Source: Planctomycetota bacterium
GTDB taxonomy: Bacteria > Planctomycetota > PUPC01 > JACPCR01
Direction: 5' to 3'
Length of the DNA stretch: 64,000 nucleotides
NCBI GenBank assembly: GCA_016179685.1
Contig: JACPCR010000076.1
Coordinates: 1-64,000 of the forward strand
The position numbers and the translations under genes are program-made. Of this stretch, positions 6,859-45,747 are shown in pieces; the stretch's first letter is position 1, and the number at the start of each line of letters is the position of its first letter. Under the pieces are notes generated by a model. It was not told where the DNA came from. It made no database searches and saw only the letters and a list, made by a program, of their open reading frames with translations.

Positions 6859-6934
6859 GGCGGGGCTGCTTCGGCGAAGCCGAACCAGCCCCGTCCCTGA
6901 AATCCGCGGAGCCCGGATGGCGGAACGGATTTCA
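6859..6934 (-). repeat. Dispersed double-hairpin repeat R1, copy A
   Basis: Read on the minus strand, TGAAATCCG at the start pairs with CGGATTTCA, followed by a second hairpin whose arms are GGGGCTG/CAGCCCC around an inner TTCGGC/GCCGAA stem. The unit begins directly after the oxygenase stop codon (6935-6937). Two further copies with the same two-hairpin layout are at 35889-35968 and 45670-45747. It could act as a transcript end or stability element; there is no T-run, so it is not a standard rho-independent terminator. Confidence 0.75.
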
Positions 6935-14223: not shown

Positions 14224-16893
14224 TCATGGGGTCACTTTTCTTGCCTCAGGCGGGCGGATGTCGAAATTGAAAAACACCGGCCCACGGCCTCGAACCGCGA
14301 GGGCTGAGATACGGTGTCGGCCTGGCAAGCTCCCTGGGGTATATTCCCCCCGGGCAATGCCGTCGAGGTCCGTCGTGAAAGCCACCGAGGTGAGTTGCCC
14401 GGCCCCGCGGAGAATCTCCATCGTGCCCATGAACCCGCCAATCCCGTTGCCGTCCTTGTCGCAGAGTTTGACCGCGAGAGGGACAGGCAACTTCTGTCCG
14501 GCCAGGCCTCGCTGGTTATTACCGCTGAGTATTCCGAGGTGGTCCGGCGGGCCGACCTTCACCGCAACGTCCGAGGGACGCAGCTTGACGTCTGGATTGG
14601 ACTGGAGCGCCGCGTAGGCCTCCGTGACGGCGTGCCACATGGGTCCATCGTAGGGCTGCGCCTGGCGCTTCGGATAGCCTTCCGTATCCCAGGCCAGCTC
14701 GATCGGCCGATAGAGCTTGTCCAGTTCCTCTTTCCCGGGCTTTTCACCCTTCCGCATCTTTTCCCGGGTCAACTGGAGAAAGGCCTGAACCCGGGGACGC
14801 CAGTAGAAGCGAAGAACTTCATAAAAGTCGCGGCTTCCATAATCGATGATGGTCGGGTAGGACGTGGCAAAACTGAGGTTCTTCCGCAGGGTTTCCCTCA
14901 TGGCCGCGAGCCGGGGATTCCTTCGATGCCGGGCCAGGGAACGTGCCAGGTCCTCCACGCGGCAGCTCGGTCGACTGGACAGAACACCTTCGACCTGGGA
15001 AAGGATGAAAAGCATCGCGCTGGCGTGCCGATCGAAGCGGCGCTCGTCCCTGGCAGCGAAGGCCTCATCGAGCGCCAGGAAGTGGGCGTTGAAGAGCTCG
15101 GTGGCATACTGGCGGAAAGCGTCCACAAGGTCGTTGCCAAAGCACTCTTGATCGCGGAGGCTGGCCGCAACAGGCAGCACGGCATCGAAGAACTTTTCGA
15201 GGCGTCTAGCGGTTTGGACCGACCAGCTCATGGGCATGAAGCGGATGGGGTAGTTGGGAAGCGGTTGCATGTGGGGGTACATCCGATGCTGGTACATGGC
15301 GCTGGAGGTGACCCAATCGGTGTACACCACGTCCGCCAGAGTCCGGAGCGCCTTCCCGCCGCGCGTAGCGTTCTGTGCTCCGTATCGTCTAAGGGCAACA
15401 TCGGCGAGATGCTTGGAATAGTCGATTCGGCCTGGCTGCCACGCCAGGCGGGTGATGAAGTCGTAATAATGCACGTTGTAGCGGAGGACTTCCGTGGCGA
15501 TGCCGATGCCGCAGCAGTTAGCCGCCTTCCGGTCGCCGGCCAGGCGTTGGACGGTCTCGATGCTCTTGGGGATATTGCCGTGGAGATAGTCGTCGCCTCC
15601 GAACTCGTTGAGGAAGGCCAAAGCGAAGGGCAGCCCTCGGTAATAATTGACCCGCTCCCCTTCACAGATTGGTCTGGGGGTCCACTCGATCCCTTGGCAC
15701 CAGGCGATGGCCTTTTCGGGAGGGTTCACGTTCCTGAGGAAGCCCTGGATCACTTTCTTCGACCATGCACAGGTGTAATTGAACACCCAGCCCCAGTCGT
15801 TGAAGACCCAGATGCCTTCCGGGTCCGCCGCCTGGATTCCGGCCATGACCCCGAGCGGCAGGGAGATCATGATGGCGTTTCGTTCCTCGGGACTCGTGTT
15901 GAAGCTCGATTCGCTGTAGGGATCGCTGCCGGTGTAGAGGTGCCAGGTCCCGTAGATTTCCGTCCAGCAGCGAACATAGGTCTCCACCAGCTTCCGGTAG
16001 AGGGGATCAGTGGGGAAAAGGTTCGGTGACAAGGTGGGCTCCGTCGCATCCCCCTGGGGACAAAACCATCCCTGCCGGAAGTAGCGGCTTTGAGGGTGGG
16101 CCCGCTCGAATTCCACGGTCACCCCGGTAGTGGGGATGGGTGTGATGGCATCCATGTCCAGCGTTCGCAGGTAATCGAAGATGCGCCGGGCAAATCGCAT
16201 CGCTTCCAGGTCTTTCTCGGGGATCGGCCGCTGGCCCAGTCCCATCCGTTCCTCGACGATTTTCCCCACCATGGCCATGCCGATGTTGGGGATGATCGCG
16301 TTGAACTTGTTTTTCATGAGCCAGTCGATCTCGGTCTTCCACTCTTCAAAACCCCACAGGCTTCCGAAAGAATAGCCCGCTGCGCATCCGCCATCGAAGG
16401 AGAAGCGGAGCCGAAAGCGGGGGCGTTCGGAGATGTCGATTTTGGGCAGTCGGATGCTGTTCATCCTGGGCACATGGTCGCCGTCCCAGAAGAATCCGAC
16501 GTGCAGGAATTTTTCCAGGAGCTGATAAACGGCATAGAGCGTGCCACGGTCCCGGGACCCGCCCAGGACGAGGTCACGGTCAAGCGTCTTGATGATGAAA
16601 CCGTCCGTGCCGGGCCAGGTGTTGGTCAAGCGCACTGCCCCCCGACGGACATGTTCCTGAATCCTGTGGTGGGTTTCAGGTCTGCCGATGAGAATGAGCG
16701 CGTGTCCGGTGGGGATGGGCTGACCGCCTTCCCTGGCGATGGGCAGCCGGACTCCGCTCATCTGCTCCACGTAGCGCGACAGTTCCCCAGCCGCATGCTT
16801 CTCGGTGGCCGTCGCCTTTTGGCCGAGGAGGAGGATGCTGTGAGGTTTACCCTCGTGTACGACCGTGAAGGAGGGCAGCTTGTCTTTCTTCAT
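14224..16893 (-). CDS. GH89-like alpha-N-acetylglucosaminidase, paralogue A, with C-terminal Ig-like domain
   Basis: 889 residues. The N-terminal 130 residues match the alpha/beta fold found before GH67/GH20/GH89 barrels (ATEKHAAGELSRYVEQMSG). The barrel starts near residue 170 with YSFGSLWGFEEWKTEIDW, comparable to the YSxxWWxWxRWExEIDW pattern of NAGLU enzymes; YGTWHLYTGSDPYSE and FLNEFGGDDYLHG correspond to the substrate-site segments (FGGN in NAGLU). The last 110 residues form an invasin/Big1-like Ig domain (KVGPPDHLGILSGN to GRHRISALAV). No signal peptide is visible, so export is uncertain. A paralogue lies at 23365-26013. GH89 enzymes remove terminal alpha-GlcNAc, for example from heparan-type glycans; the exact activity here is inferred. 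Confidence 0.72.
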   Translation of the reverse strand: MKKDKLPSFTVVHEGKPHSILLLGQKATATEKHAAGELSRYVEQMSGVRLPIAREGGQPIPTGHALILIGRPETHHRIQEHVRRGAVRLTNTWPGTDGFIIKTLDRDLVLGGSRDRGTLYAVYQLLEKFLHVGFFWDGDHVPRMNSIRLPKIDISERPRFRLRFSFDGGCAAGYSFGSLWGFEEWKTEIDWLMKNKFNAIIPNIGMAMVGKIVEERMGLGQRPIPEKDLEAMRFARRIFDYLRTLDMDAITPIPTTGVTVEFERAHPQSRYFRQGWFCPQGDATEPTLSPNLFPTDPLYRKLVETYVRCWTEIYGTWHLYTGSDPYSESSFNTSPEERNAIMISLPLGVMAGIQAADPEGIWVFNDWGWVFNYTCAWSKKVIQGFLRNVNPPEKAIAWCQGIEWTPRPICEGERVNYYRGLPFALAFLNEFGGDDYLHGNIPKSIETVQRLAGDRKAANCCGIGIATEVLRYNVHYYDFITRLAWQPGRIDYSKHLADVALRRYGAQNATRGGKALRTLADVVYTDWVTSSAMYQHRMYPHMQPLPNYPIRFMPMSWSVQTARRLEKFFDAVLPVAASLRDQECFGNDLVDAFRQYATELFNAHFLALDEAFAARDERRFDRHASAMLFILSQVEGVLSSRPSCRVEDLARSLARHRRNPRLAAMRETLRKNLSFATSYPTIIDYGSRDFYEVLRFYWRPRVQAFLQLTREKMRKGEKPGKEELDKLYRPIELAWDTEGYPKRQAQPYDGPMWHAVTEAYAALQSNPDVKLRPSDVAVKVGPPDHLGILSGNNQRGLAGQKLPVPLAVKLCDKDGNGIGGFMGTMEILRGAGQLTSVAFTTDLDGIARGEYTPGSLPGRHRISALAVRGRGPVFFNFDIRPPEARKVTP

Positions 16894-21778: not shown

Positions 21779-23176
21779 TCACTTCACCTCGTCGAGATAT
21801 TCCGGCACGATCTTGTTGGTCTGACCGGTTTTCTTGAGCAGTGCGGCGATCTTTTCGTCGAGCATGTGGTACAGGAGAATTTGGTTTAACCCGCTGACGG
21901 CGGCCATTCGCTTTGGAGGAAATGGAATCTCGACCTCCGAATCTACGCCGCGCCATTGCTGGTCCACATGCGCAAGAGCGCCGGACGCGTCCACGCCGCG
22001 CCATTGCTGATGGGTGGTCGCAGGCTGAGTGGCCTCGTTGTCCTGTGGGGGAACATAGCAGGTGATCTTGTCGATCTGCGCCTCGTCAATATGCTTGTCC
22101 ACGCCGGCGATCATTCCGACGTAACTGAACCAGATCAGGAGGTCTCCCTCCGCGAGGTTCTCTTTGAAGATGCCCGTATCGCCATAGGGATTTTGGAAGG
22201 GCTTGATTCCGGAAATATGATCGCCGATGATCTCTTCGCCAAAGGCGTGACAACAGCCGGAAATCCCAACCTGCCGCCCTGATTTCATGCGCGCCACGAT
22301 GATCTCGGCCGCCTTGGACAATTCTTCGTCCGTCTTCTTGTTGGACACCTCTTCCAGCAACCGTCGCACACGAGCCGCGTATTGCGCCGCCAGTCTCCCG
22401 GCAGGTATTGGCGCGCCGCCATAGTCGAACAGTCGGTACCGCCCCTCGTCCGTCTGGATGTTTCGCGTCCACTCCTCGCCACCCTCGGCTTGGATCGAGC
22501 GGAAAATACCGGGATACTTACCCCGCCGGGTCATGGCGGCGGCGAATTCGCAGACCCACATCCAGGAGTTCATGGTGTTGGCCAGATCGTTTACCCGCGC
22601 AAGGCGTTTGTCGCCCGATGGAGCGAAGTTATCGATCAAGAAATCAATTTCTCCGTGGAAGTCATGCGCATTGAAATCCTTCGGCATCCCGGATCGGGAG
22701 GCAAACAGGAGCAACTTGCTTTTGTGCTCTTTCTTGCTCGCCAGAAAATCAGCGACAAGTTTGAACGTTCGGGGGTCATCCCAGGAGCGGATGCTGGCGA
22801 TGACGAGATCCTCGGACGTATTCGGCTTCGTGAAATTGCCCAGTGGGACGACTCGCGCCAGTCCACCAGAACGGTTATGCAGTTCGTCGAAGAATCCGTT
22901 TTCATACTGCCATATCGCCCAGAGGATGGCATCCGGATGATCCATGACCACGTCGGCATGGGCCTCGGCGACAAGGCTAATCTTCGGAATGTTCTTTTCC
23001 AAGGGTTCCAGGCGGGTCTTGAAATCCCCCAGGGTGCCGCCCAGTAATTGGCGACAAAGGGCGATACCAAGGATGGCAACCCCTATAGCCACCCTTCGCG
23101 ATTGAAATTCCGATACTATTATTGTTGGCTTAGTGTACATCCATCGGGGCCGCGATCGGGTACACTTCGGATTCAT
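21779..23176 (-). CDS. Exported or anchored protein of unknown function
   Basis: About 465 residues. A hydrophobic segment (VAIGVAILGIALC) near residue 25-40 suggests a signal peptide or anchor. The body (DVVMDHPDAILWAIWQYENG, LVADFLASKKEHKSKLLLFASR, VGISGCCHAFGEEIIGDH) is alpha/beta; it faintly resembles SIS-fold phosphosugar-binding proteins but I cannot confirm this. Near the C-terminus QQWRGVD occurs twice, 16 codons apart, due to a local 20-base duplication (21942-21961 and 21990-22009). The start at 23176 has GAGG upstream that overlaps the stop of the gene remnant at 23187; 23140 (ATG) is the alternative. Confidence 0.6.
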   Translation of the reverse strand: MNPKCTRSRPRWMYTKPTIIVSEFQSRRVAIGVAILGIALCRQLLGGTLGDFKTRLEPLEKNIPKISLVAEAHADVVMDHPDAILWAIWQYENGFFDELHNRSGGLARVVPLGNFTKPNTSEDLVIASIRSWDDPRTFKLVADFLASKKEHKSKLLLFASRSGMPKDFNAHDFHGEIDFLIDNFAPSGDKRLARVNDLANTMNSWMWVCEFAAAMTRRGKYPGIFRSIQAEGGEEWTRNIQTDEGRYRLFDYGGAPIPAGRLAAQYAARVRRLLEEVSNKKTDEELSKAAEIIVARMKSGRQVGISGCCHAFGEEIIGDHISGIKPFQNPYGDTGIFKENLAEGDLLIWFSYVGMIAGVDKHIDEAQIDKITCYVPPQDNEATQPATTHQQWRGVDASGALAHVDQQWRGVDSEVEIPFPPKRMAAVSGLNQILLYHMLDEKIAALLKKTGQTNKIVPEYLDEVK

Positions 23177-23186
23177 AGGACTTGCC

Positions 23187-23313
23187 TCACCGCGTCTGGA
23201 CGAACAGCGCCCGAATCTCGCCAGGGGCCAGCTTGACCGTGCTGATGGTGGCGTCGCCGTCCTGCTTCCACTCGACCTGGATTGGCTGGGTGTACTGCGG
23301 CAGCCACTCGTTG
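23187..23313 (-). pseudogene. C-terminal remnant of a copy of the 28567-31251 gene
   Basis: The minus strand encodes NEWLPQYTQPIQVEWKQDG and continues in the same frame to a TGA, matching the last 42 codons of the intact gene at 28567-28695 with only a few substitutions (by eye about 90 percent at DNA level). Homology stops abruptly at 23314 and no upstream part of the gene remains. The intact and broken copies are in the same orientation and flank the GH89-like B and vWA genes. This is too short to be functional and is best read as a decayed gene end. Confidence 0.85.
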
Positions 23314-23364
23314 CCATCATCAGCAGAAAGCGGTTAGAGCTGGAGAAGAGGTTCATCGGGTGTC

Positions 23365-26013
23365 CTATGGGGGTTGGATGATGAAATCAAAAGTAACGCG
23401 GTTTCGGCCGCGGATCGCCTGGGCGCGGATGGTGTGCCGGCCGGGCACATTGCCGGGGGTATATTCGCCCCGCGCCAGGCCGTCGAGGTCCGTGGTAAAG
23501 ACGACCGAGGTGAGTTTGCCGGCCCCGCGGACGATGTCCATGGTGCCCATGAACCCTCCGACCCCATTGCCATCCTTGTCGCAGAGCTTTATGACCAGCG
23601 GAGCCGGCAGCTTTTCGCCAACCTTGCCGTTCTGATGATTGCCGCTGACAATCTCCAAGTGGTCCACGGGTCCTGCCTTCACCCGGATGTCCGTAGGCCG
23701 CAGTCTGACGGCGTGATGGGTACGGACGGCGTCGAAGGCGGCCTTGACCGCCCGCCACATGGGGCCCGGATAGGGCGGCGCCTGCCGCGGATCATAGCCC
23801 CTCTCATCCCATTTCACCTCGATGGCCCGGTAAAGCGTGTCCAACTCCTCCTTGGTGGGCCGGGCCCCGAGGATCATTTTCTCCCTCATGAGTTTGAGGA
23901 ACGCTTCGACCCGAGGCCGCCAATAGAACTTGAGCTGTTCATAGAAGTCCCTGCTTCCGTAGTCGATGATGCTGGGATAGGAAGTGGCGAAGCTGAGATT
24001 CTTACGCACCGTTTCCCTCATCTTGTCGAGGCGGGGATTTCTCCGGTGGCGGGAAAGGGAGCGGGCCAGGTCCTCGACGCGGCAGCTTGGCCGGCTGGAA
24101 AGGACCCGCTCCACATGATCCAGGAGGAAGAGCATGGCCGCGGCGTGGCGGTCGAACCTTGCCGCGTCTCTGGCCGAGAAGGCGGAATCAAGGCCGAGGA
24201 AATGGACGTTGAAGAGTTCGGTGGCGTACTGACGGAAGGCGTCGACCAGGTCGTGGCCGAGGAAGGGATTCGCGCGGACGGCTGGGGGCAGGGAGAGCGC
24301 CATCTCGATGAAGCGGCCCAGGTATTGGGCCGTCCGCACGGACCAGTTCATGGGCATGAAGCGCACGGGGTAGTTGGGCATGGGCTGCTGGTGGGGATAG
24401 AGGCGATGCTGGTACATGGCGCTGGATGTGACCCAATCGCGGTAAACGGCATCGGCGAGGACCCGGATGGCCTTTTGCGATTCTTTAAGCGATTGTTTTC
24501 CATATCGGCGGAGAGCGAGATCGCCGAGGTGGGATGGGTATCCGATGCGCTGGGGTTGCCACGCCAGGCGCATCAGAAAGTCGTAGTAATGCACGTTGTA
24601 ATGCAGGACCTCGTTGACGAGGCCGAAGCCGCGGCAGCCGGCCGCCTTCGGGACCGCGTCAAGGTCTCGAACGAGGGCAAGGCTTTTGGGGAGGTTGCCG
24701 TGCAGGTAATCGTCGCCTCCAAACTCGTTGAGGAAGCCCAAGGCGAATGGCCGCCCCGCGTAGTAGTCCACCCTCGCTTCCTCGAAGATGGGCCGTGCGG
24801 TCCATTCGATCCAGTTGTTCCAGACAAGGGCTCTCTCGGACGGACGGACGTTTTTCAGGAAGCCCTGGATGAGTTCCTTCGACCAGGCGCAGGTGAAATT
24901 AAAGACCCAGCCCCAGTCGTTGAATATCCAGATGCCTTCGGGGTCCGCGTCCTGGATACCGGCCATCACCCCCTTGGGAAGGCCCATAAGGACCTCGTCA
25001 CGCTCCTCCGGGGTCGTATCAAAAGTCGCTTCGCTGCCCGGGTCGACGCCCCAGTACAAATGCCAGGTCCCGTAGACTTCCGTCCAGGTGTGGATGAATG
25101 TTTCGACCAGCTTTCGGTAGAGGGGATCGGCTGGGTGGATGTTGGGATGGAGTGCGATCTTTTCGGCCGAGCCTTCTGGGATGGTCCACCCCTGGCGGAA
25201 ATAGCGTCCCTGAGGATGGCGACTCTGAAATTCTTTCGTGACGTTCGTGCCCGGAAGCGGGGTGATGGCATCCATATCGAGGGTCCGCATGTAACCGAAG
25301 ACCCGCCGGGCAAGCCGCATGGATTCCCGATCCTCCTTCGAGATTTCACGTTTAGGCAGCCCCATTCGTTCATCGACCATTTTGTCGACGATGGGACGGC
25401 CGAGGCTGGGGATCACCGCGTTGAATTTGTTTTTCGCGAGCCAGTCCAGCTCGGTCTTCCATTCCTCGAAACCCCAGAGGCTTCCGAAGGAGTAACCCGC
25501 CGCGCATCCGCCGTGGAAGGAGAAACGCAGGGAGAAGCGGGGCTTCTCGGGCAGGTTGATCCGGGGCAGGGCGATGTTCCTCGTTTTGGGGACCTGGTCC
25601 CCGTCCGAAAAGAATCCGACATGGAGGAACTTTTCGAGCAGGTGGTATACGGCATAGAGGGTGCCGCGGTCGCGGGACCCGCCGAGGACCAGCTTATTTC
25701 CCGCGGTGTGGATGACAAATCCATCCCCGCCGGGGTAATCTCCGGAAAGCTTGAGAGCCCCCTGAAGGACGAGTTCCAGGATCCTCGGGTTGGTTTCCGG
25801 CCTGCCGATCAGGATGACCGTCTGACCCGGCCTCGTGGTGGTCTCACCGTCTTGGACCACGGGCAGCCTTGCGCCGCTCGTGCGTTCCACATAGCGCTTC
25901 AGTTCGTCAGCCGCGTGTTTCTCCGTGGGGGTGGCTTTTCGCCCGAGCACGATCAGGCTGGATGGCCTGCCGTGGGCGACCAGAGTGAGCACGCGGGAAT
26001 CTGTCTTTCTCAT
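23365..26013 (-). CDS. GH89-like alpha-N-acetylglucosaminidase, paralogue B, with C-terminal Ig-like domain
   Basis: 882 residues, collinear with paralogue A over its full length; long stretches are alike (for example SRPSCRVEDLARSLSRHRRN and YGSRDFYEQLKFYWRPRV). The same layout holds: N-terminal carbohydrate-binding alpha/beta domain (EKHAADELKRYVERTSGARLP), barrel from YSFGSLWGFEEWKTELDW, LNEFGGDDYLHG, and a C-terminal Ig-like domain with GNHQNGKVGEKLPAPLVI. No signal peptide is seen. AAGGAA lies 9 bases ahead of the ATG at 26013. Divergence between paralogues looks like an old duplication, not a recent amplification. It stands between the vWA gene and a duplicated gene end. Confidence 0.72.
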   Translation of the reverse strand: MRKTDSRVLTLVAHGRPSSLIVLGRKATPTEKHAADELKRYVERTSGARLPVVQDGETTTRPGQTVILIGRPETNPRILELVLQGALKLSGDYPGGDGFVIHTAGNKLVLGGSRDRGTLYAVYHLLEKFLHVGFFSDGDQVPKTRNIALPRINLPEKPRFSLRFSFHGGCAAGYSFGSLWGFEEWKTELDWLAKNKFNAVIPSLGRPIVDKMVDERMGLPKREISKEDRESMRLARRVFGYMRTLDMDAITPLPGTNVTKEFQSRHPQGRYFRQGWTIPEGSAEKIALHPNIHPADPLYRKLVETFIHTWTEVYGTWHLYWGVDPGSEATFDTTPEERDEVLMGLPKGVMAGIQDADPEGIWIFNDWGWVFNFTCAWSKELIQGFLKNVRPSERALVWNNWIEWTARPIFEEARVDYYAGRPFALGFLNEFGGDDYLHGNLPKSLALVRDLDAVPKAAGCRGFGLVNEVLHYNVHYYDFLMRLAWQPQRIGYPSHLGDLALRRYGKQSLKESQKAIRVLADAVYRDWVTSSAMYQHRLYPHQQPMPNYPVRFMPMNWSVRTAQYLGRFIEMALSLPPAVRANPFLGHDLVDAFRQYATELFNVHFLGLDSAFSARDAARFDRHAAAMLFLLDHVERVLSSRPSCRVEDLARSLSRHRRNPRLDKMRETVRKNLSFATSYPSIIDYGSRDFYEQLKFYWRPRVEAFLKLMREKMILGARPTKEELDTLYRAIEVKWDERGYDPRQAPPYPGPMWRAVKAAFDAVRTHHAVRLRPTDIRVKAGPVDHLEIVSGNHQNGKVGEKLPAPLVIKLCDKDGNGVGGFMGTMDIVRGAGKLTSVVFTTDLDGLARGEYTPGNVPGRHTIRAQAIRGRNRVTFDFIIQPP

Positions 26014-26122
26014 GGGGCATTCCTTTCCATTGGCCTTCTACCCAGGGCGGCCATCGGCTCGCTCGGCTGCCCTGGGCTTTGCTTGTTCAACCCTTTCGGG
26101 GTAGGAGTAACAGAGGGGGGGC

Positions 26123-26201
26123 CATGGGGTCGGTCCTTGTTTTGGTGTTTGTCGGCGGAGGGAAAGAATAGCCAAGTATCAAAACAAGGACCGACCCCAT
26201 G
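26123..26201. repeat. 22 bp perfect inverted repeat with 35-base loop
   Basis: Arms at 26123-26144 and 26180-26201 are perfect complements; the core is GGGGTCGGTCCTTGTTTTG. From memory, similar GGTCxGTCCTTGTTTTG arms flank REP-associated (IS200-like) transposase genes in other genomes; no transposase is present here, so this may be a solo or miniature element. It lies in the gap between the vWA and GH89-like B genes. Confidence 0.75.
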
Positions 26202-26211
26202 CCTTCCGAAA

Positions 26212-26261
26212 GCATCCACGCCATCATCAGTAAAAAGCATTTGAACGAGGGGTACGAGTTC
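26212..26261. repeat. About 50 bp dispersed motif, copy 1
   Basis: This stretch (from CATCCACGCCATCATCAG to GAGGGGTACGAGTTC) aligns with 33497-33546 with about 80 percent identity and one length difference. Both are intergenic, upstream of minus-strand genes of the glycan region, and one reading frame gives a similar IHAxIxxKxxxEG peptide in each. A gene fragment or a mobile-element end are both possible. Confidence 0.5.
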
Positions 26262-26320
26262 ACAGCTATGGGCTCCTAGCGCAAAGGGGTCAAAGCCTTA
26301 TGACGTTCCGACTCGCAGAA

Positions 26321-28474
26321 CTAAATTCGGGGATTGCCACCACCCCCTCCTCCGGAAGAGCTAGAGCTACCCGGGCAGGGGATGGGTGTAATTTTCTTGA
26401 TCAGGTTTTTGTTGACCGTCTTCGACCCTTTATTGGCAACCGAAATGGTAATCATATTGTGGTCTCCTTCGCTCACGGTGGCCTGGTATTTCTGGCCACT
26501 GCTGGTCTCGACGATGGCGCAATAGGCCGGGGGCGAAGGACGATAATGAGAAAACTTGAAACCGTAAAAGAAGGCATTCGAATTCGGATCAAACTGTGAC
26601 GCCACGCGGCCCCACGGCGTCCGCGGATGGCGGTCCGCTACAAAACGCATGGCCCGAATCACCATTTCCCGGTCATTGGCCTCGTCCTTCGTGGCCTTCA
26701 CTGGCTGATTGGCGACAAACGTAATGACGTTGCCAGCGGGTAGGGGATGGGTCTCCTCCAGGAAGTCCTCCAGGCACAATTTGAACTGACGGATGCGGTG
26801 GCGCGCCAAGACCAATGAGGCCATGACGAGATCGGCGTTGGCCGGCCAGCGCCGGTTTTCAGTGAGGTTTTCCAGTTGGCTGGTGGGCATGATCGCATTC
26901 TGCTCCATCCCTTGAATCAGGTCCCCCGTCAGGCTCAACTTCTTGTTGCAGTCCGCGATCTGAACGCGGGCCTCCGATACTCCGAACCAGACCCATCGGG
27001 GCCCGCCCGTGTTCATTTTTTGAATGACCGCTTCGACGGCGGCTTTATAAGGATTCCTCATGGTGCGTTTCTGATATTCTTCTCTCGAAACCAGCTCCGG
27101 CCGGTAAACCTCCATGAGGTCCCAGTCATACATGGTCTGCTTTTCAGCCTCCGGCATCGGATCGAGAATGTAGTAGGCCCCGCCGGAATAAAAGGCGAGG
27201 CGGCTGATGTCGTAGATGCCAAAGCCAGACAAGACATTTTCAACACTATAAAAACCGCCCCAGGAGACACCCGTACCCTCGGGGTAGGCGGTTTCAGGGC
27301 CCCTGTGGACCGTCCCCATGCCTGAAAATTTCTCGCCATCCCTATCGACAAATTCAAAGGGTTCTAAAAGGTATTGGCTCTGGAATGGGCACTCGCGGTT
27401 GATCACGAACAGGGTCGTCTGCGTCTTGCGCAATTCCGCCAGAGCTTTTTCCAAAAGATCGCTGTCGTCCGGGCTGTCGTCGTCCACCAGCACCAGCACC
27501 TTTTTCCCCTTGTGCGTGCTCTCGGCAAACGTATTCGCCGCATAGATGACTGCGGCCATCGTGTTCTCTGTTGTCCCGGGCGGACTCAGCTCGATGGCGT
27601 CAATCGCTTGCATCACCCGGTCCACGTCCGACGTGGGCTTGAGCCATAGGTGTGGCTTGTCGCTGTAATAGACGACCGCCTGCATGAGCTCTCCGGCGCC
27701 TTCCTGTTCCCTGAACTTCCGATCCATCTCCCAGAGCCGTTCCTTGATGGCTCGCTGGTCATCCAGCATGCTGAGGGAAGCATCGATGACCCAAACGAGA
27801 AGCACGTTCCCGTTATACCTGCCACCTCGTGAAATCTTGCCGAGGCGGCCTGTCAGGTGGCGCATGATGCCCTGGTAGCCGGCGCCGCGGGCATTGAAGC
27901 CGGACTCTCCAATGCCGATCACGTCGGTGGACTCGAGTTCTCCCATGCCCGCGCCATCCCCGATCTCGCCGGTCTCCTCGATTCCCGTGAAGCTCTCATC
28001 CGCCGGAACGATGCTCTCCGCTGTCTGCACCAGATCGCTCGTTTCCACGGTCGTCGTCTCCGTAACCTCCGTCACTGGCTGATGGACCAGGGTGGGAGCG
28101 TGGACCACGGGCTCGGTCTGTTCCACTTTGGTGTTTTGGAAAACTCGCTCAATCTTCTTGAGGTCAACGGGCTTGATGTCTTCCGTCCGGATTTCCGTGG
28201 TGACGATGAGATCGTCTTCAGGCGGCGGCCTCGACATCATGACGATTTTGCCGAGGATGAGAATCGCGGCGACATGGAGCGCGATGGAGATGACCCACCA
28301 GGGAGTGGCCCGAACATATTCGGCAATCTTGGCCCGCCATTGGGAAGCCCGTAGCACGAAATTCAGCGAAGTCACCTCGGCCGCCTCAAGACCTTCGTCC
28401 CGGCCCGGAGGACATTCCTTGTCCAGGTCCTCTGCAACATCTTCAAGGGATTCATCCTGGTTTTCGCTGGCCAT
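26321..28474 (-). CDS. Membrane-anchored vWA-domain protein
   Basis: About 717 residues from the ATG at 28474. Residues 1-70 are cytoplasmic and acidic, then one membrane helix (WWVISIALHVAAILILG), a Thr/Glu-rich linker (TEVTETTTVETSD), and a von Willebrand A domain from about residue 225 with an intact MIDAS DASLS and later VLVDDDSPDDS. The C-terminal 300 residues are unassigned; the extreme end is a Ser/Gly run (SSSSSGGGGGG). The N-terminal helix resembles the TonB-like anchors on PVC vWA proteins. The domain should face the outside and bind a metal-dependent ligand; partner unknown. No protease or ATPase partner (MoxR) is adjacent. Confidence 0.85.
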   Translation of the reverse strand: MASENQDESLEDVAEDLDKECPPGRDEGLEAAEVTSLNFVLRASQWRAKIAEYVRATPWWVISIALHVAAILILGKIVMMSRPPPEDDLIVTTEIRTEDIKPVDLKKIERVFQNTKVEQTEPVVHAPTLVHQPVTEVTETTTVETSDLVQTAESIVPADESFTGIEETGEIGDGAGMGELESTDVIGIGESGFNARGAGYQGIMRHLTGRLGKISRGGRYNGNVLLVWVIDASLSMLDDQRAIKERLWEMDRKFREQEGAGELMQAVVYYSDKPHLWLKPTSDVDRVMQAIDAIELSPPGTTENTMAAVIYAANTFAESTHKGKKVLVLVDDDSPDDSDLLEKALAELRKTQTTLFVINRECPFQSQYLLEPFEFVDRDGEKFSGMGTVHRGPETAYPEGTGVSWGGFYSVENVLSGFGIYDISRLAFYSGGAYYILDPMPEAEKQTMYDWDLMEVYRPELVSREEYQKRTMRNPYKAAVEAVIQKMNTGGPRWVWFGVSEARVQIADCNKKLSLTGDLIQGMEQNAIMPTSQLENLTENRRWPANADLVMASLVLARHRIRQFKLCLEDFLEETHPLPAGNVITFVANQPVKATKDEANDREMVIRAMRFVADRHPRTPWGRVASQFDPNSNAFFYGFKFSHYRPSPPAYCAIVETSSGQKYQATVSEGDHNMITISVANKGSKTVNKNLIKKITPIPCPGSSSSSGGGGGGNPRI

Positions 28475-28566
28475 GGTCTGGGTTCCCAAGAGTTGGCCCG
28501 AACACGCAAAATCAACCGTCAGGCGCTATATTCCAGCAGAAAGTTTGTGGGATTTTGCGGCTCGTC

Positions 28567-31251
28567 TTACCTCGTTTGGATGAACAGCACCCGAATCTCG
28601 CCAGGAGTCAACGTGACCGTGCTGATGGTGGCGCCGCCGTCCTGCTTCCATTCGACCTGGATGGGCTGGGTGTACTGCGGCAGCCATTCGTTGGGATAGG
28701 ACCAGGCCTGCGGCTGCTCGCCCAGCCAGTCCTGAGTGGTCAGCGGCTTCTCTCGCAGGCGGAGCGTCACCGTGGAGGCCTTACCCGCGTCCATGACGGC
28801 CGCAGAGTGCGAAAGCTTGGCGATGCCCTCGTTGTTCGACACCACCACGACGTAGCCCTTGGGATGCAGGTTGACGTAGTACTGGCAGTTGCCCGTCACC
28901 TGAACCGGCAGCAGGCCGCTGGTCACTTGCTGCAGCAGCCGGGCCATGTAAGGCATGGGGACGCCGTCGTGGCCCAGCAGGTAGGAGGGTGTGGTCAGGA
29001 TCACTTGCCCCTTCCCGACCTTGCTGATCACTGCCACCGGGTCGCCGCCTGGGGTTTTGGCGATGACGTTTGCCTCGGCCTTTGGCGTCACCAGCAGGTA
29101 CGGGAAAACCGTGCCCGAGAGTTTCTGTCCGTCAGGCTGGCACTCGACCTCGGTATCCTCCTTCCAGGTCTTGCTCAACGTGACGCCCAGGAAGGCCTCA
29201 TCCATGCCAGCAGCCGCCTGCTCGACGTTGAGAACCAGCGTGCCGCCGTTGCGGACATAGGCCTTGAGCGCCTCGACCCACCTGGCGTCCAGGCGGGTGT
29301 CGCCGACGCAGAAGACCACGGGGTAGGCGTTGACCGCGTCGGTCATGGTCGGCGAGGTCACCAGAATGTCGAAGATGTCCCCGAAATAGCCGTTCGGCCA
29401 AGGCACGTTGAGATCGTCCACTGGGTCGCCCTCGTTGTGCGGGAAAGGGAAGTACGCGACGTTGAAGAAGCCGTCGATCATCCGGTCTGATCGCTGAAGC
29501 GCCTGCCGGCCCCAGACGTGCATGCCGGTGTATTCGTACTTGTCCCAGCCGTGGGCGTGGTCGAGCAACACAGCCACGGGCGTATAGGTTACGCCGCGAT
29601 CGGGGTGGCGTGTGGCCAAGCGCATCATCTCGTCATAGGACCAGCCCATGGGATTGAGCGTGCCGTCAGCGGCGAAGAGGTTATAGCCCTGTTCCGGGTA
29701 GAAAAAGCTGGCGCCCTGGAGATAAGCATGGAGTAGAGTACGGCGGATGTGGGCCAGCGACGGGCCGACCTTTTCGTTGCGGTTGTCAACGCTCAGCCCC
29801 TCGAGTGACAGGACGTAGGCGTACTCGGCCGTGAAGGTGCGGATGGCGTCGCCGAAGGACGCGCCGAAATACCACAACCAGCGACGCCCGTATTGCCTCG
29901 CTGCCCCGCGGGCGAATGCCATCTGCAGGTCGATGTAGGGCATCGCTCCGGCCGACTCCGCGCCGAGCACCTGGACGCCGCTTTCAGCCCAGCGGTGAAT
30001 GTGCGGCAGGGTGCCCACGCTGCTGCAGAGGATGAACTTCGCGAAGGGATCAGCGATGGGCGTGGCCCAGTCCTCGCTCAACCGGTTTTGCCAGACGCCC
30101 CTGCCCTCGCCGAGAATCCAGCGGTAGTTCGACTCCTTGAAGTCTGGCCCGAGCGGGACGTTCTCCGGTGTCAGCGGAACGCCCAGGTAGCTCCCCTCGC
30201 CGGAGATGATGCCGACCCACAGGTCGCCGAAGACCTTCTTCATCTCGTTGTAGGAGTCGGGGACCTTTCCGGCGGAGGCATAGTTGCCCCCGATCACGAA
30301 AGGCACCTTCTTCTCGAGGACGTATTTCCGCATGGGGTCGTCGGGCTTGAGCAGGCCCCCGACTCCTCCGATGGCTAACCTCCCGGCGCAGCGGGGCGAG
30401 CCGAAGACCGGCGCGGACTCGGGCTTTTCGGAGTAGGCCTTGATGAAGTTAGGCAGCGTCTCGGGCGCGTTCATGCCCTCGACGCTGATCAGCCGGGGAA
30501 AGCGGCTATCCAGCGAACCACCGAGATACCAGAAGTCCTGTCCAGCGACGGCCGGGAGCGTCCAGCCCTGGGGCACGGCGGGTTTGGGCGACGCGACCAG
30601 GGGTGGGAGCGGCTGGCGGTTCTGTGCCCACTGGAGCAGGTACTCGGCGTAGGCCATCGGCGGGAAAGCGCGCCCTTGGGGCTGCCAATGAGCGTCCGTG
30701 GTCAGCACCAGCGCGTCCAAAGCCCGGCGTACCGGCCCCGCACCGGCCAGCACCACGCGCACCATGGCAGGCCCCTTCTTCAGGCCGACGGTCCCTTTGT
30801 CCCACGCGTAGTTCCATGGGAAGGGCGGCGCGGCAGCCGCCACGACGTCGCCGCGTCCAAAGGCGGCCCGAGCTTCGCCGCCGGGGTGCTGGACCACGAC
30901 ATCGAACGGCTCGGCCTTGCCAAGATAATCCTCGTACCGCGCCCAGAGCGTATAAACGTCGGATTGCGGCACCGTGATGGGGATCGAAATCTCGCCCTCG
31001 ACCGCGGCCGCGTCGCCTTGCGCGGCCCACCAACCCGAATCGCCTCCGCGGCTCCACTGCGGCCACCAGGCCATGCGGTGCGTCCAGACCTCCTTCCCCT
31101 TGTACGCGCCGAAACCCTCAAAGTCCTCCACCTCGAGTTTCAAATAGACCGGGGAAGCCGACTTGACCTCCCCTGGGGACGCGGCAGCGAATGTAGCCAT
31201 CACCGCTAGGGTCACACGACATGGCCATCCGGAGAGGAAATGGGGTTTCAT
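28567..31251 (-). CDS. Secreted glycosidase-like protein with CBM-like and GATase-like domains
   Basis: 894 residues from the ATG at 31251. A signal peptide (PCRVTLAVMATFAAASPG) and a CBM-like jelly roll (residues about 35-200, with YTLWARYEDYLGKAEPFDVVV) are followed by an alpha/beta region (ISVEGMNAPETL, IISGEGSYLG, YRWILGEGRG). The latter contains several Glu that could be catalytic. A GATase-fold segment (YPVVFCVGDTRLDARWVEALKAYV) and a beta-rich C-terminus complete it. I cannot place it in a known GH family. Its last 42 codons are duplicated at 23187-23313. It is followed at 92 bases by the vWA gene. Confidence 0.7.
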   Translation of the reverse strand: MKPHFLSGWPCRVTLAVMATFAAASPGEVKSASPVYLKLEVEDFEGFGAYKGKEVWTHRMAWWPQWSRGGDSGWWAAQGDAAAVEGEISIPITVPQSDVYTLWARYEDYLGKAEPFDVVVQHPGGEARAAFGRGDVVAAAAPPFPWNYAWDKGTVGLKKGPAMVRVVLAGAGPVRRALDALVLTTDAHWQPQGRAFPPMAYAEYLLQWAQNRQPLPPLVASPKPAVPQGWTLPAVAGQDFWYLGGSLDSRFPRLISVEGMNAPETLPNFIKAYSEKPESAPVFGSPRCAGRLAIGGVGGLLKPDDPMRKYVLEKKVPFVIGGNYASAGKVPDSYNEMKKVFGDLWVGIISGEGSYLGVPLTPENVPLGPDFKESNYRWILGEGRGVWQNRLSEDWATPIADPFAKFILCSSVGTLPHIHRWAESGVQVLGAESAGAMPYIDLQMAFARGAARQYGRRWLWYFGASFGDAIRTFTAEYAYVLSLEGLSVDNRNEKVGPSLAHIRRTLLHAYLQGASFFYPEQGYNLFAADGTLNPMGWSYDEMMRLATRHPDRGVTYTPVAVLLDHAHGWDKYEYTGMHVWGRQALQRSDRMIDGFFNVAYFPFPHNEGDPVDDLNVPWPNGYFGDIFDILVTSPTMTDAVNAYPVVFCVGDTRLDARWVEALKAYVRNGGTLVLNVEQAAAGMDEAFLGVTLSKTWKEDTEVECQPDGQKLSGTVFPYLLVTPKAEANVIAKTPGGDPVAVISKVGKGQVILTTPSYLLGHDGVPMPYMARLLQQVTSGLLPVQVTGNCQYYVNLHPKGYVVVVSNNEGIAKLSHSAAVMDAGKASTVTLRLREKPLTTQDWLGEQPQAWSYPNEWLPQYTQPIQVEWKQDGGATISTVTLTPGEIRVLFIQTR

Positions 31252-31370
31252 AACGTCTTGGCCCAATGGGGGATGAATGGTGAGATGAAAGGTGACACTC
31301 GATGCCTACTTATTTTGGAAAACAGTGGGACATGGCATTCCCATCACAGGCCTGCTGTGCGGCGCAAACG

Positions 31371-33437
31371 TCATTCAAGGGAAGGAGCCTCCACATCACG
31401 AAGAAGATCAAGGGCCAAGTTGCCCTCTCGGCCATCGCGGGACCACTGAGCCGATCCCCCTTGCTGCAAGCCTATCGTCAGCCGATCAACATGACCTTTG
31501 AATTTCACTGTCACTGTGGTGCGGCCATCAGGGGCGTTCGATATCTGGGCAACTAACCCGGGCACGCGTTTCCTATAGGGGACGAAAAGCGTCGCGACGA
31601 TAAGGGGCAGTTCGGCCTGCCAAGTGTATTCGAGCTGAGGCGCCGGGATCATCGTGCCGTTTTCAGGGGAGAACCAGCCGCGAAGAGGTTCCCTGGAGCC
31701 TTCCCAGATGCGGAGATGCGCGGCCTGCGGCAGAAAAGGGAGAATCCGGACGTTGGCGTCGTCATTTTGCGTATGCACCCCAAGGCCGTCACTTTGAATG
31801 ACAACCCGGGAAGGTGTGAGCAGCCAGCGCAATGAGAAGCCGTGCTGGCCGCTTCCCTGCACAGCATCGATGACCAGCCAGTAATGAGATTTTGCGAAAA
31901 GAAGTCCTCGCTGATGCCGAACGTCGGGGGCATTGTCGAATCCTGCGGGGTGGGTGCCCCAGGCAAAGTCAACGTCTGGGCTGAAATGCCAGGTGTTCTT
32001 CTGAAGGCCGGGTGAGCGCTGGATGGGCGTGGCAACGCCCCACTCTTGCTGGAAGGAATCGTCCACCATGAGGGTGTTGTAGCCCGCGTTGATGAAATAG
32101 TGATACCACTCCGGCTTGTAATAGCCGTATCGGCCGCATCCGGTGACCAAGGTTCGCCCGAAGGCGTAGAGGTCGATGGCAAGACTGCTGCGTTCCTTGC
32201 AGCCCAGCCCGTTACCGTTATGAAAGCAGGCAACCATGGACTCGCGCTTGAAGCCGTCGCGCAAGATGAAGGCGCCTGCGTTGGGGAGCAGAATGCTGGT
32301 GTGGCCGGGCAGCGTTCCTTCTTCGCCGGCGGAAAGCACATAGAGCCAGTCCGGCCGGTCGAAGAACTTGGCCGCTGTCCGCAACCATGGAGTGCAGCCC
32401 TGGATGTCGGAGGCATTGATCTGTGGGAGTGTGTGGTCTGGCTTCTGGACGTTGACGAGCCAGTGGATGGAGCGTTCGAGGGCTTTTCGGGCCGCCGGCT
32501 CGAGGAGATCGGGACAGCCCAGTTGACTCAAGTGCTGGGCCAAGACGACGGGAATGCAGAACGCTGTTTGATAATGGGGACAAAAATCGTGGGTATCATA
32601 GGTCCCGTCTTCGCGGGATTCCGCCACAATCCAGCCATTCACATATTCGGCGCACTGCCTTACCCACATTTTGGCGGATTTGCATTCGGGGAACAGCATC
32701 CCGACGTAACCGAGCGCGCATCCGATGTGAAGTCCCCATGCACGGGTTTCCGGGCCTCGTTTCTGGATGGCTTCGGCTTGGCGGAGAATATCCAGAAAAA
32801 GGCGGAGCTTGAATCCCTCGGGAACAGATGAGGAATTCAGAAATGTGTACCAGGAAAAGGTAAGGCCCGAGATCGTCAGGGGATTTCCACCGAGCCGGCA
32901 TGCTGCGGTAAGGGACCATTCGCCAGTGTGGGTATCCACGGGTTGGGACCACCAACTTTCAATGAGGCTGACGAAACGGTGTGATGCCCGCTCTTGCAAG
33001 GCTTCCGAGCCATGGAGATAGGCGAGGTCAAGGGCCCGAAGCCAGCACATGCGGTGGAGAAGTAATCGCGCCTGCGCGTAGGGGTCTCTGCTTGTGCCTT
33101 GCGTTAGCGCCGAATAATCGAATCGCCATTCGGTACCCTCGGGCTTGGAGAAATCAAAGAGGTGGCCCGATGAGTAAAGGAAACCCGCGGCCACATTTTC
33201 TGGCGTGTTTTTCCAGAGCTGGCTGGCGTCGGGAGCTGCGCCCCATGGCATTGGAGGAAAGGCCTCCTGGCCCATCCTATCTAAGATGGAGACGCAGCGG
33301 GCGCTGCGGTGTATCTGGTAATAACCGAGCAACAGGTCCGCAGCCTTCCTATCATCGCCGCTTTCGTGGGCTGCCCTGACCCCCTCCAGTCCCGGGTATT
33401 GAAAGTCCAGAAAATCAAAAAGGTCCTTGAGTTCCAT
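31371..33437 (-). CDS. Heparinase II/III-like polysaccharide lyase
   Basis: About 688 residues. The N-terminal 350 residues are alpha-helical (alpha/alpha toroid) with WWSQPVDTHTGEW and FCPHYQTAFCIP; the C-terminal half is an antiparallel beta-sandwich beginning near ILRDGFKRESMVACFHNGNG. The segment HNGNGLGCKERSSLAIDLYAFG and the following GYYKPEWYHYF resemble the His/Tyr-bearing core of the heparinase II/III family (PL12/PL15/PL17/PL21). No signal peptide is seen. Such lyases cleave uronate-containing glycans by beta-elimination; substrate unknown. The ATG at 33437 is preferred to a GTG at 33449. It lies 118 bases downstream of the second PhyH gene. Confidence 0.8.
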   Translation of the reverse strand: MELKDLFDFLDFQYPGLEGVRAAHESGDDRKAADLLLGYYQIHRSARCVSILDRMGQEAFPPMPWGAAPDASQLWKNTPENVAAGFLYSSGHLFDFSKPEGTEWRFDYSALTQGTSRDPYAQARLLLHRMCWLRALDLAYLHGSEALQERASHRFVSLIESWWSQPVDTHTGEWSLTAACRLGGNPLTISGLTFSWYTFLNSSSVPEGFKLRLFLDILRQAEAIQKRGPETRAWGLHIGCALGYVGMLFPECKSAKMWVRQCAEYVNGWIVAESREDGTYDTHDFCPHYQTAFCIPVVLAQHLSQLGCPDLLEPAARKALERSIHWLVNVQKPDHTLPQINASDIQGCTPWLRTAAKFFDRPDWLYVLSAGEEGTLPGHTSILLPNAGAFILRDGFKRESMVACFHNGNGLGCKERSSLAIDLYAFGRTLVTGCGRYGYYKPEWYHYFINAGYNTLMVDDSFQQEWGVATPIQRSPGLQKNTWHFSPDVDFAWGTHPAGFDNAPDVRHQRGLLFAKSHYWLVIDAVQGSGQHGFSLRWLLTPSRVVIQSDGLGVHTQNDDANVRILPFLPQAAHLRIWEGSREPLRGWFSPENGTMIPAPQLEYTWQAELPLIVATLFVPYRKRVPGLVAQISNAPDGRTTVTVKFKGHVDRLTIGLQQGGSAQWSRDGREGNLALDLLRDVEAPSLE

Positions 33438-33496
33438 TTTAGAATGCACTGGAGTAGTCGACCCGAGTTCTTCCGCGACCGCGGCGCATCACCCCA

Positions 33497-34347: not shown

Positions 34348-34489
34348 GGCCAGTTCCAGTGGTGAAGAGTTAGGCACTTGTGACGCCAAACTTGAAAAAC
34401 TTTCAATTTAAACCCTTTTAAATTGGTCACTTATGGAATATCGAGTTTCCTTATTTCGCCTCGAAGCCCCCCGGGAGGGATTTCATTTG

Positions 34490-34533
34490 GTAGACGAGTC
34501 AGCAAGTGCCGATGCACTTGCTGACTCGTCTAC
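34490..34533. repeat. 44 bp perfect palindrome R2, copy 1
   Basis: Twenty-base arms (34490-34509 and 34514-34533) starting GTAGACGAGT are perfectly complementary around a CGAT loop. The second copy is at 42026-42069 with two arm mismatches. No T-run follows, so it is not a usual terminator, and here it lies between divergent genes. Confidence 0.85.
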
Positions 34534-34944
34534 TAGCTAGCTGAACCGGTCAGAATTAACTTGGCACTATTTCCGAACTAGCTTACTTGACGAAACTCTG
34601 TAAACTGAAGGATTCTACTGCGATGTCTTCTGTCACGAAATGAGTATATTTGCTTGACCACGATAACCAGAGGCCAAAAATGACAGAAAAAACCCGCATA
34701 ATAATCTGTCAAGCGCACAAATTTAGGTGTCGCATGATTTTCATTCCAGATCACCAATCTAAACCCACACTTTACATGTAACATATTTGTATTAAAACTC
34801 TTATATGCTGATACATCACACCTGGAATGGTCCGAGGTTTTCTAGACCGACGCACGATATGTGCCCAAAATGAAGGCCTGAATATCGAAGAATTTTCATA
34901 TTTTAAAATATTCTAACTGTTGGTGAACAACTGTCCATATAGAC

Positions 34945-35852: not shown

Positions 35853-35888
35853 TTGACACCCGTGCTGCGATACGGTTATCCTGTCTAT

Positions 35889-35968
35889 TGAAATCCGCTG
35901 CGTCTTTCGGGCTCCCGGATTTCAGAGCCCGGGTAGGCCCGGCTTCGCCCGACCCAACCCTGCGGGTC
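35889..35968 (+). repeat. Dispersed double-hairpin repeat R1, copy B
   Basis: TGAAATCCGCTGCG opens the unit and pairs with the later GGATTTCA; the second hairpin is GGGTAGGCCCGGCTTCGCCC with its partner. Same layout as copies A and C. It follows the AraC gene stop. Downstream to 36149 the DNA is a mosaic of further repeat pieces (36028-36054 and 36081 onwards). Confidence 0.75.
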
Positions 35969-41841: not shown

Positions 41842-42025
41842 ATCGTGTGAAGCTCGCCCGGGATTTTGGCAGATCGCCCGCTGGACGGCCGAACGGACCC
41901 TGGAAGCGCCTCCCTCCGCAGAATCCCCTCGGGAAACGGAGTCCCTCCGGAAGGCATCTTGCCGGCACCATGGGTCCCCGGGCTGCTAACCTTCGAATCA
42001 GCAAGAAAAAGCCAGCGAGACGCTG

Positions 42026-42069
42026 GTAGACGAGTGAGTAAGTGCGGGTGCACTTGCCCACTCGTCTAC
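42026..42069. repeat. 44 bp palindrome R2, copy 2
   Basis: Arms 42026-42045 and 42050-42069 start GTAGACGAGTGAGTAAGTGC and pair with two mismatches around GGGT. It lies between the convergent Hsp70 and FucU-like genes. Arms and loop length equal those of copy 1 at 34490. Confidence 0.85.
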
Positions 42070-42117
42070 TTGAAGGCCCGAAAAGGCGTCAGATTTCAGG
42101 TGCTGCGGAAAGACAAT

Positions 42118-45655: not shown

Positions 45656-45669
45656 GAAAAAACTCCTAT

Positions 45670-45747
45670 TGAAATCCGCTGCGCCCTCCGGGCTCGCTGA
45701 TTTCAGAGCCAGGGTTGGCCCCGCTTCGCCGGCCCAACCCTGGCGGG
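45670..45747 (+). repeat. Dispersed double-hairpin repeat R1, copy C
   Basis: TGAAATCCGCTGCG opens the unit (45670) and the second hairpin ends near CAACCCTGGCGGGG. It overlaps the lexA mRNA leader. A CAAACTT-(13)-AAGTTTG stem (45776-45802) follows directly, similar to the AAACTT motif after copy B (36081 onwards). Confidence 0.75.

Follow-up and report, generated by a model that had tools for sequence, protein, structure and literature searches.

A 126-bp in-frame copy of a gene's 3' end in a Planctomycetota genome is probably the tail of a lost second gene copy

Introduction

Integrative elements can insert into the 3' end of a protein-coding gene and provide a replacement end. A literature search for elements that rebuild gene ends found no paper. 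According to Liu et al. (2004, PMC522871), the pseudogene fragments of prokaryotic genomes comprise disabled native duplicates as well as horizontal transfers that failed. The locus considered here, from the draft genome of a Planctomycetota bacterium, carries the end of one gene twice, on either side of a segment with two other genes, and is compared below with both kinds of system. The window (the whole 64,000-nucleotide stretch of DNA that was analysed) had been the subject of a preliminary description, which proposed that this repeated end arose either by an insertion restoring the 3' end of its target gene or by an ancient tandem duplication with loss. Genes are named here by their lower coordinate where no family name applies.

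The repeated gene end and its limits

According to the preliminary description, the last ~125 bp of the 28567 gene recur at 23187-23313 with ~90% identity and an abrupt edge, and a vWA gene, the GH89-like gene B, and a 22-bp inverted repeat lie between the copies; blastn and a repeat search confirm the recurrence, and all three intervening features are present (Table 1). The blastn alignment pairs 23186-23313 with 28566-28693 (128 bp, 89.8% identity, gapless, E = 4e-43), and the repeat search of the window returns the direct repeat 23181-23313 / 28561-28693. Across the whole 7.2-Mb genome the repeated end is found in these two copies and no others. The fragment (126 bp) is homologous to 41 of the about 899 codons of the 28567 gene and is in frame with it, with no internal stops and no indels; neither a start codon nor the bulk of the coding sequence is present, and a TAA stands in frame a short way upstream.

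The homology is sharply bounded on both sides. Its inner (5') edge is abrupt, at AACGAG inside the 28567 gene, and no in-register similarity extends beyond this point. Its 3' edge is the stop codon, which is preserved in both copies (TGA in the fragment, TAA in the 28567 gene), and the bases past the stop match at chance level (P = 0.13, against random places). The longest exact run between the two copies is 23 bp and lies near the inner edge; as a candidate for a duplicated attachment core it is indistinguishable from the effect of constraint on the conserved NEWLP.YTQP motif.

Table 1. Coordinates of the features at the locus (positions in the window).
Feature	Position	Strand	Remarks
Intact gene of ~900 aa (28567 gene)	28567..31266	-	no curated family above cut-off; DUF4350 weak, below cut-off
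3' end of the 28567 gene matching the fragment, 41 codons + TAA	28567..28692	-	repeat search, blastn
vWA-domain protein	26321..28489	-	paralogues in same genome
Inverted repeat, 22-bp perfect arms	26123..26201		arms 26123-26144/26180-26201; single copy in genome
GH89-like protein B (GH67N + NAGLU + NAGLU_C)	23365..26013	-	66% aa identity to A
Spacer between GH89-like B and fragment, 51 bp	23314..23364
Fragment, 41 sense codons + TGA (NEWLPQYTQPIQVEWKQDGDATISTVKLAPGEIRALFVQTR, then stop)	23187..23312	-	homologous to 3' end of the 28567 gene; own start absent
21779 gene	21779..23173	-	weak SIS/sugar-isomerase similarity; likely start ATG 23173
GH89-like A	14224-16893		about 6.5 kb from GH89-like B

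Genes and repeats around the fragment

Read along the minus strand, the order is a heparinase-like gene (31371-33449), the 28567 gene, the vWA gene, an intergenic stretch containing the inverted repeat, GH89-like B, the 51-bp spacer, the fragment, the 21779 gene, the 18897 gene, a TPR gene, and GH89-like A. Comparison of the 18897 protein with the 28567 protein reveals no homology, and a search of solved structures turned up nothing related to either the 28567 or the 21779 protein. The vWA gene has two paralogues elsewhere in its genome, one at C83 (68%, partial) and one at C106 (47-49%), and the other genome of the taxonomic family contributes three more members to this gene family. Besides the GH89 pair itself, no gene copies are shared between the surroundings of GH89-like A and those of GH89-like B.

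The TGA of the fragment is 11 bp before the ATG at 23173, which is the spacing expected for consecutive genes of an operon, and GGTGAGG precedes this ATG at a fitting distance. An ORF at 21779-23356 crosses the fragment in a different frame; its start is probably wrong, the true start more probably being ATG 23173 or an ATG near 23143. With translation of the 21779 gene probably beginning at ATG 23173, the fragment is therefore probably non-coding today, and automatic start calling will stretch the 21779 gene across the remnant.

Several other repeats are present in the window. The arms of the inverted repeat at 26123-26201 (perfect arm CATGGGGTCGGTCCTTGTTTTG, 35-bp gap) extend to 29 nt at 90% identity and are followed by a short ORF (MPSESIHAIISKKHLNEGYEFTAMGS, then stop); we take the structure to resemble a REP doublet, though as a single copy in the genome it was rejected as a dispersed repeat family. 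A hairpin at 26042-26110 (CCCAGGG...CCCTGGGCTTTG and CCCTTTCGGGG) has a 76% match at C117:6270-6328 on another contig and may be a dispersed intergenic repeat. A dispersed intergenic repeat of ~80 bp (TTGAAATCCGCTGCG...GGATTTCAGAGCC...CCCAACCCTG) occurs at 35885-35966, 45666-45747, and 6872-6934 with 78-87% identity, and its core, TGAAATCC...GGATTTCAGAAG, recurs upstream of the C106 vWA gene. A palindromic element of ~47 bp (GTAGACGAGT...ACTCGTCTAC) has two intergenic copies, at 34488-34534 and 42024-42070. Within the 21779 gene, at 21942-22009, a 20-bp stretch occurs twice with 48-bp spacing and gives a repeated QQWRGVD peptide.

Substitutions in the fragment

The fragment has diverged from the 28567 gene in the manner of coding sequence: seven of the 12 sense differences are silent and five are replacing (dS about 0.29, dN about 0.055, dN/dS about 0.19). 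Under an all-neutral model, five or fewer replacements arise in 0.5-1% of cases (0.5% in simulations with 13 random substitutions). A model in which the fragment is neutral and the gene constrained yields P about 0.05-0.11, with a likelihood ratio ranging from 0.2 to 5 according to the dN/dS assumed; a fragment truncated from the outset and neutral from then on is thus disfavoured rather than rejected, 41 codons being few.

Two of the five differing residues in the fragment (K in VKL, A in IRA) are those of the 57% homologue of the 28567 protein (L010, see below), so these states are possible in a functional gene; at these sites the two 51% homologues (L011 and L012) agree with the 28567 gene. 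The substitution pattern and the residues shared with L010 together lend moderate support to the view that both copies were once working genes.

Comparison with other genomes

The family-level comparison comprises one other genome, and further searches were made at the class and phylum level. The other genome of the family encodes a homologue of the 28567 protein at 29% identity. Three homologues exceed 50%, that of an Acidobacteria MAG (57%) and those of two genomes of the window's own phylum (51% each), and all three belong to other classes or phyla. The 28567 gene family is patchily distributed, and a second, diverged copy obtained by acquisition or by duplication is therefore plausible. 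In the stretches read beside the three 50-57% homologues there is no 21779-, GH89-, or vWA-type gene, and homologues of the 21779 gene at 35-37% lie in other gene settings. Among the loci examined, all from distant relatives, none has a 28567-type gene next to one of the 21779 type, whether the segment is present or not, and none shows a full-length second copy.

Both genomes of the taxonomic family have genes of this vWA type adjoining a gcvH-like gene (L032:6781-11706, L031:8303-9977); in the genome other than the window's (G001) two of them stand in tandem. Because the 68% relative at C83 and a copy in G001 both adjoin this gcvH-like gene (named from sequence), the window's vWA copy may be the displaced one.

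Origin of the fragment

The fragment is probably all that survives, at the 3' end, of a second homologue of the 28567 gene that was once full-length and lay directly upstream of the 21779 gene. It most likely represents ordinary debris in the genome and not the trace of a new mobile element. The second copy, which would have arisen by an earlier duplication or have been acquired separately from within the patchy family, would formerly have been the cistron immediately preceding the 21779 gene. A deletion or rearrangement would have joined GH89-like B to its tail, stripping about 95% of the gene from the 5' side, so that just the final 41 codons with their stop remained; the tail may have persisted because it runs into the likely ribosome-binding site of the 21779 gene. 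The dissimilar 3' flanks of the two copies count against this reading, as a simple tandem duplication does not predict them unless its breakpoint was the stop codon.

It is unlikely that the fragment arose by partial duplication, in which a copy of no more than the final ~126 bp of the 28567 gene would have been placed beside the 21779 gene and would then have drifted without function, the vWA and GH89-like B genes being placed between the copies simultaneously or afterwards. The models above leave some room for neutral drift confined to the fragment, and a 10-bp sequence common to the 51-bp spacer and the vWA/28567 spacer (CAGCAGAAAG, at 23321 and 28534) flanks the segment and could be a footprint of such an event (P about 0.003-0.005 for the two spacers). 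Against this, replacing changes are few and stops and indels absent from 126 bp despite 10% divergence, and two residues of the fragment are those of the L010 homologue. Bases 23314-23331 of the spacer also match 26221-26238 (16/18 bp, P about 0.003-0.017); both this match and the 10-bp one may be footprints of rearrangement; both are marginal and were picked out among several comparisons.

An insertion that supplies a new gene end, as first proposed, is slightly more doubtful still. An element would have entered near the NEWLPQYTQP codons of the 28567 gene, supplying a new 3' end and displacing the old one to a position beside the 21779 gene, with vWA and GH89-like B as cargo and a recombinase since lost. 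Homology that halts at the stop codon fits a replacement 3' end and speaks for the proposal; the 23-bp identical stretch does lie close to the inner edge, and coding-like divergence is equally expected. No recombinase, transposase, or tRNA came up in the segment or in those genes of the window that were scanned, and an Rfam search gave no match. The segment's spacers (77 and 51 bp) are too small for a recombinase gene, paralogues of its vWA and GH89-like B genes occur elsewhere in the genome, its base composition does not distinguish it, and silent changes are not scarcer near the supposed crossover. A plasmid search gave one 28% partial match, and viral contigs gave none. A small recombinase-free unit with vWA and GH89-like genes that enters the 3' end of a host gene, rebuilds this end, and leaves the old one behind is very unlikely.

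Tandem duplication of a whole block containing a 28567-type and a GH89-type gene, followed by loss, is more improbable again. GH89-like A and B are clear paralogues a short distance apart (Table 1), and their dS is about 1.3, against about 0.29 for the fragment pair, so that the two divergences hardly record the same event unless gene conversion has kept one pair alike; on these values the GH89 pair separated well before the two fragment copies did, and the lack of any other copied gene between the two neighbourhoods also tells against a block. The earlier proposal of tandem duplication with loss is thus not supported for a block with GH89 A/B, and it fits when narrowed to the 28567 gene, whose second copy would have been truncated. 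That two strains or loci were wrongly joined at the repeat during assembly, conceivable in a draft genome of 137 contigs that is about 90% complete, is scarcely credible for copies with unique flanks that differ at 10% of positions, and the longest exact run of only 23 bp makes collapse or misjoining unlikely.

Relation to known systems

Taken alone, the fragment has little significance; as a scar, it suggests that repeated copying and loss of genes built a cluster with genes of glycan-degradation type in a poorly sampled lineage. Like integrative elements at the 3' ends of genes, the locus has an intact gene with a working 3' end and a second, diverged end beyond a gene-bearing segment. Unlike them, it is without an integrase, its segment genes have paralogues in the genome, and there are no recognised terminal structures. 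The fragment resembles the pseudogene fragments of prokaryotes (PMC522871) in being the remnant of a coding gene, startless, and divergent from its intact homologue in a coding-like way. It differs from them in its clean 5' truncation and in its 41 codons free of stops and frameshifts, its origin lying either in duplication or in transfer.
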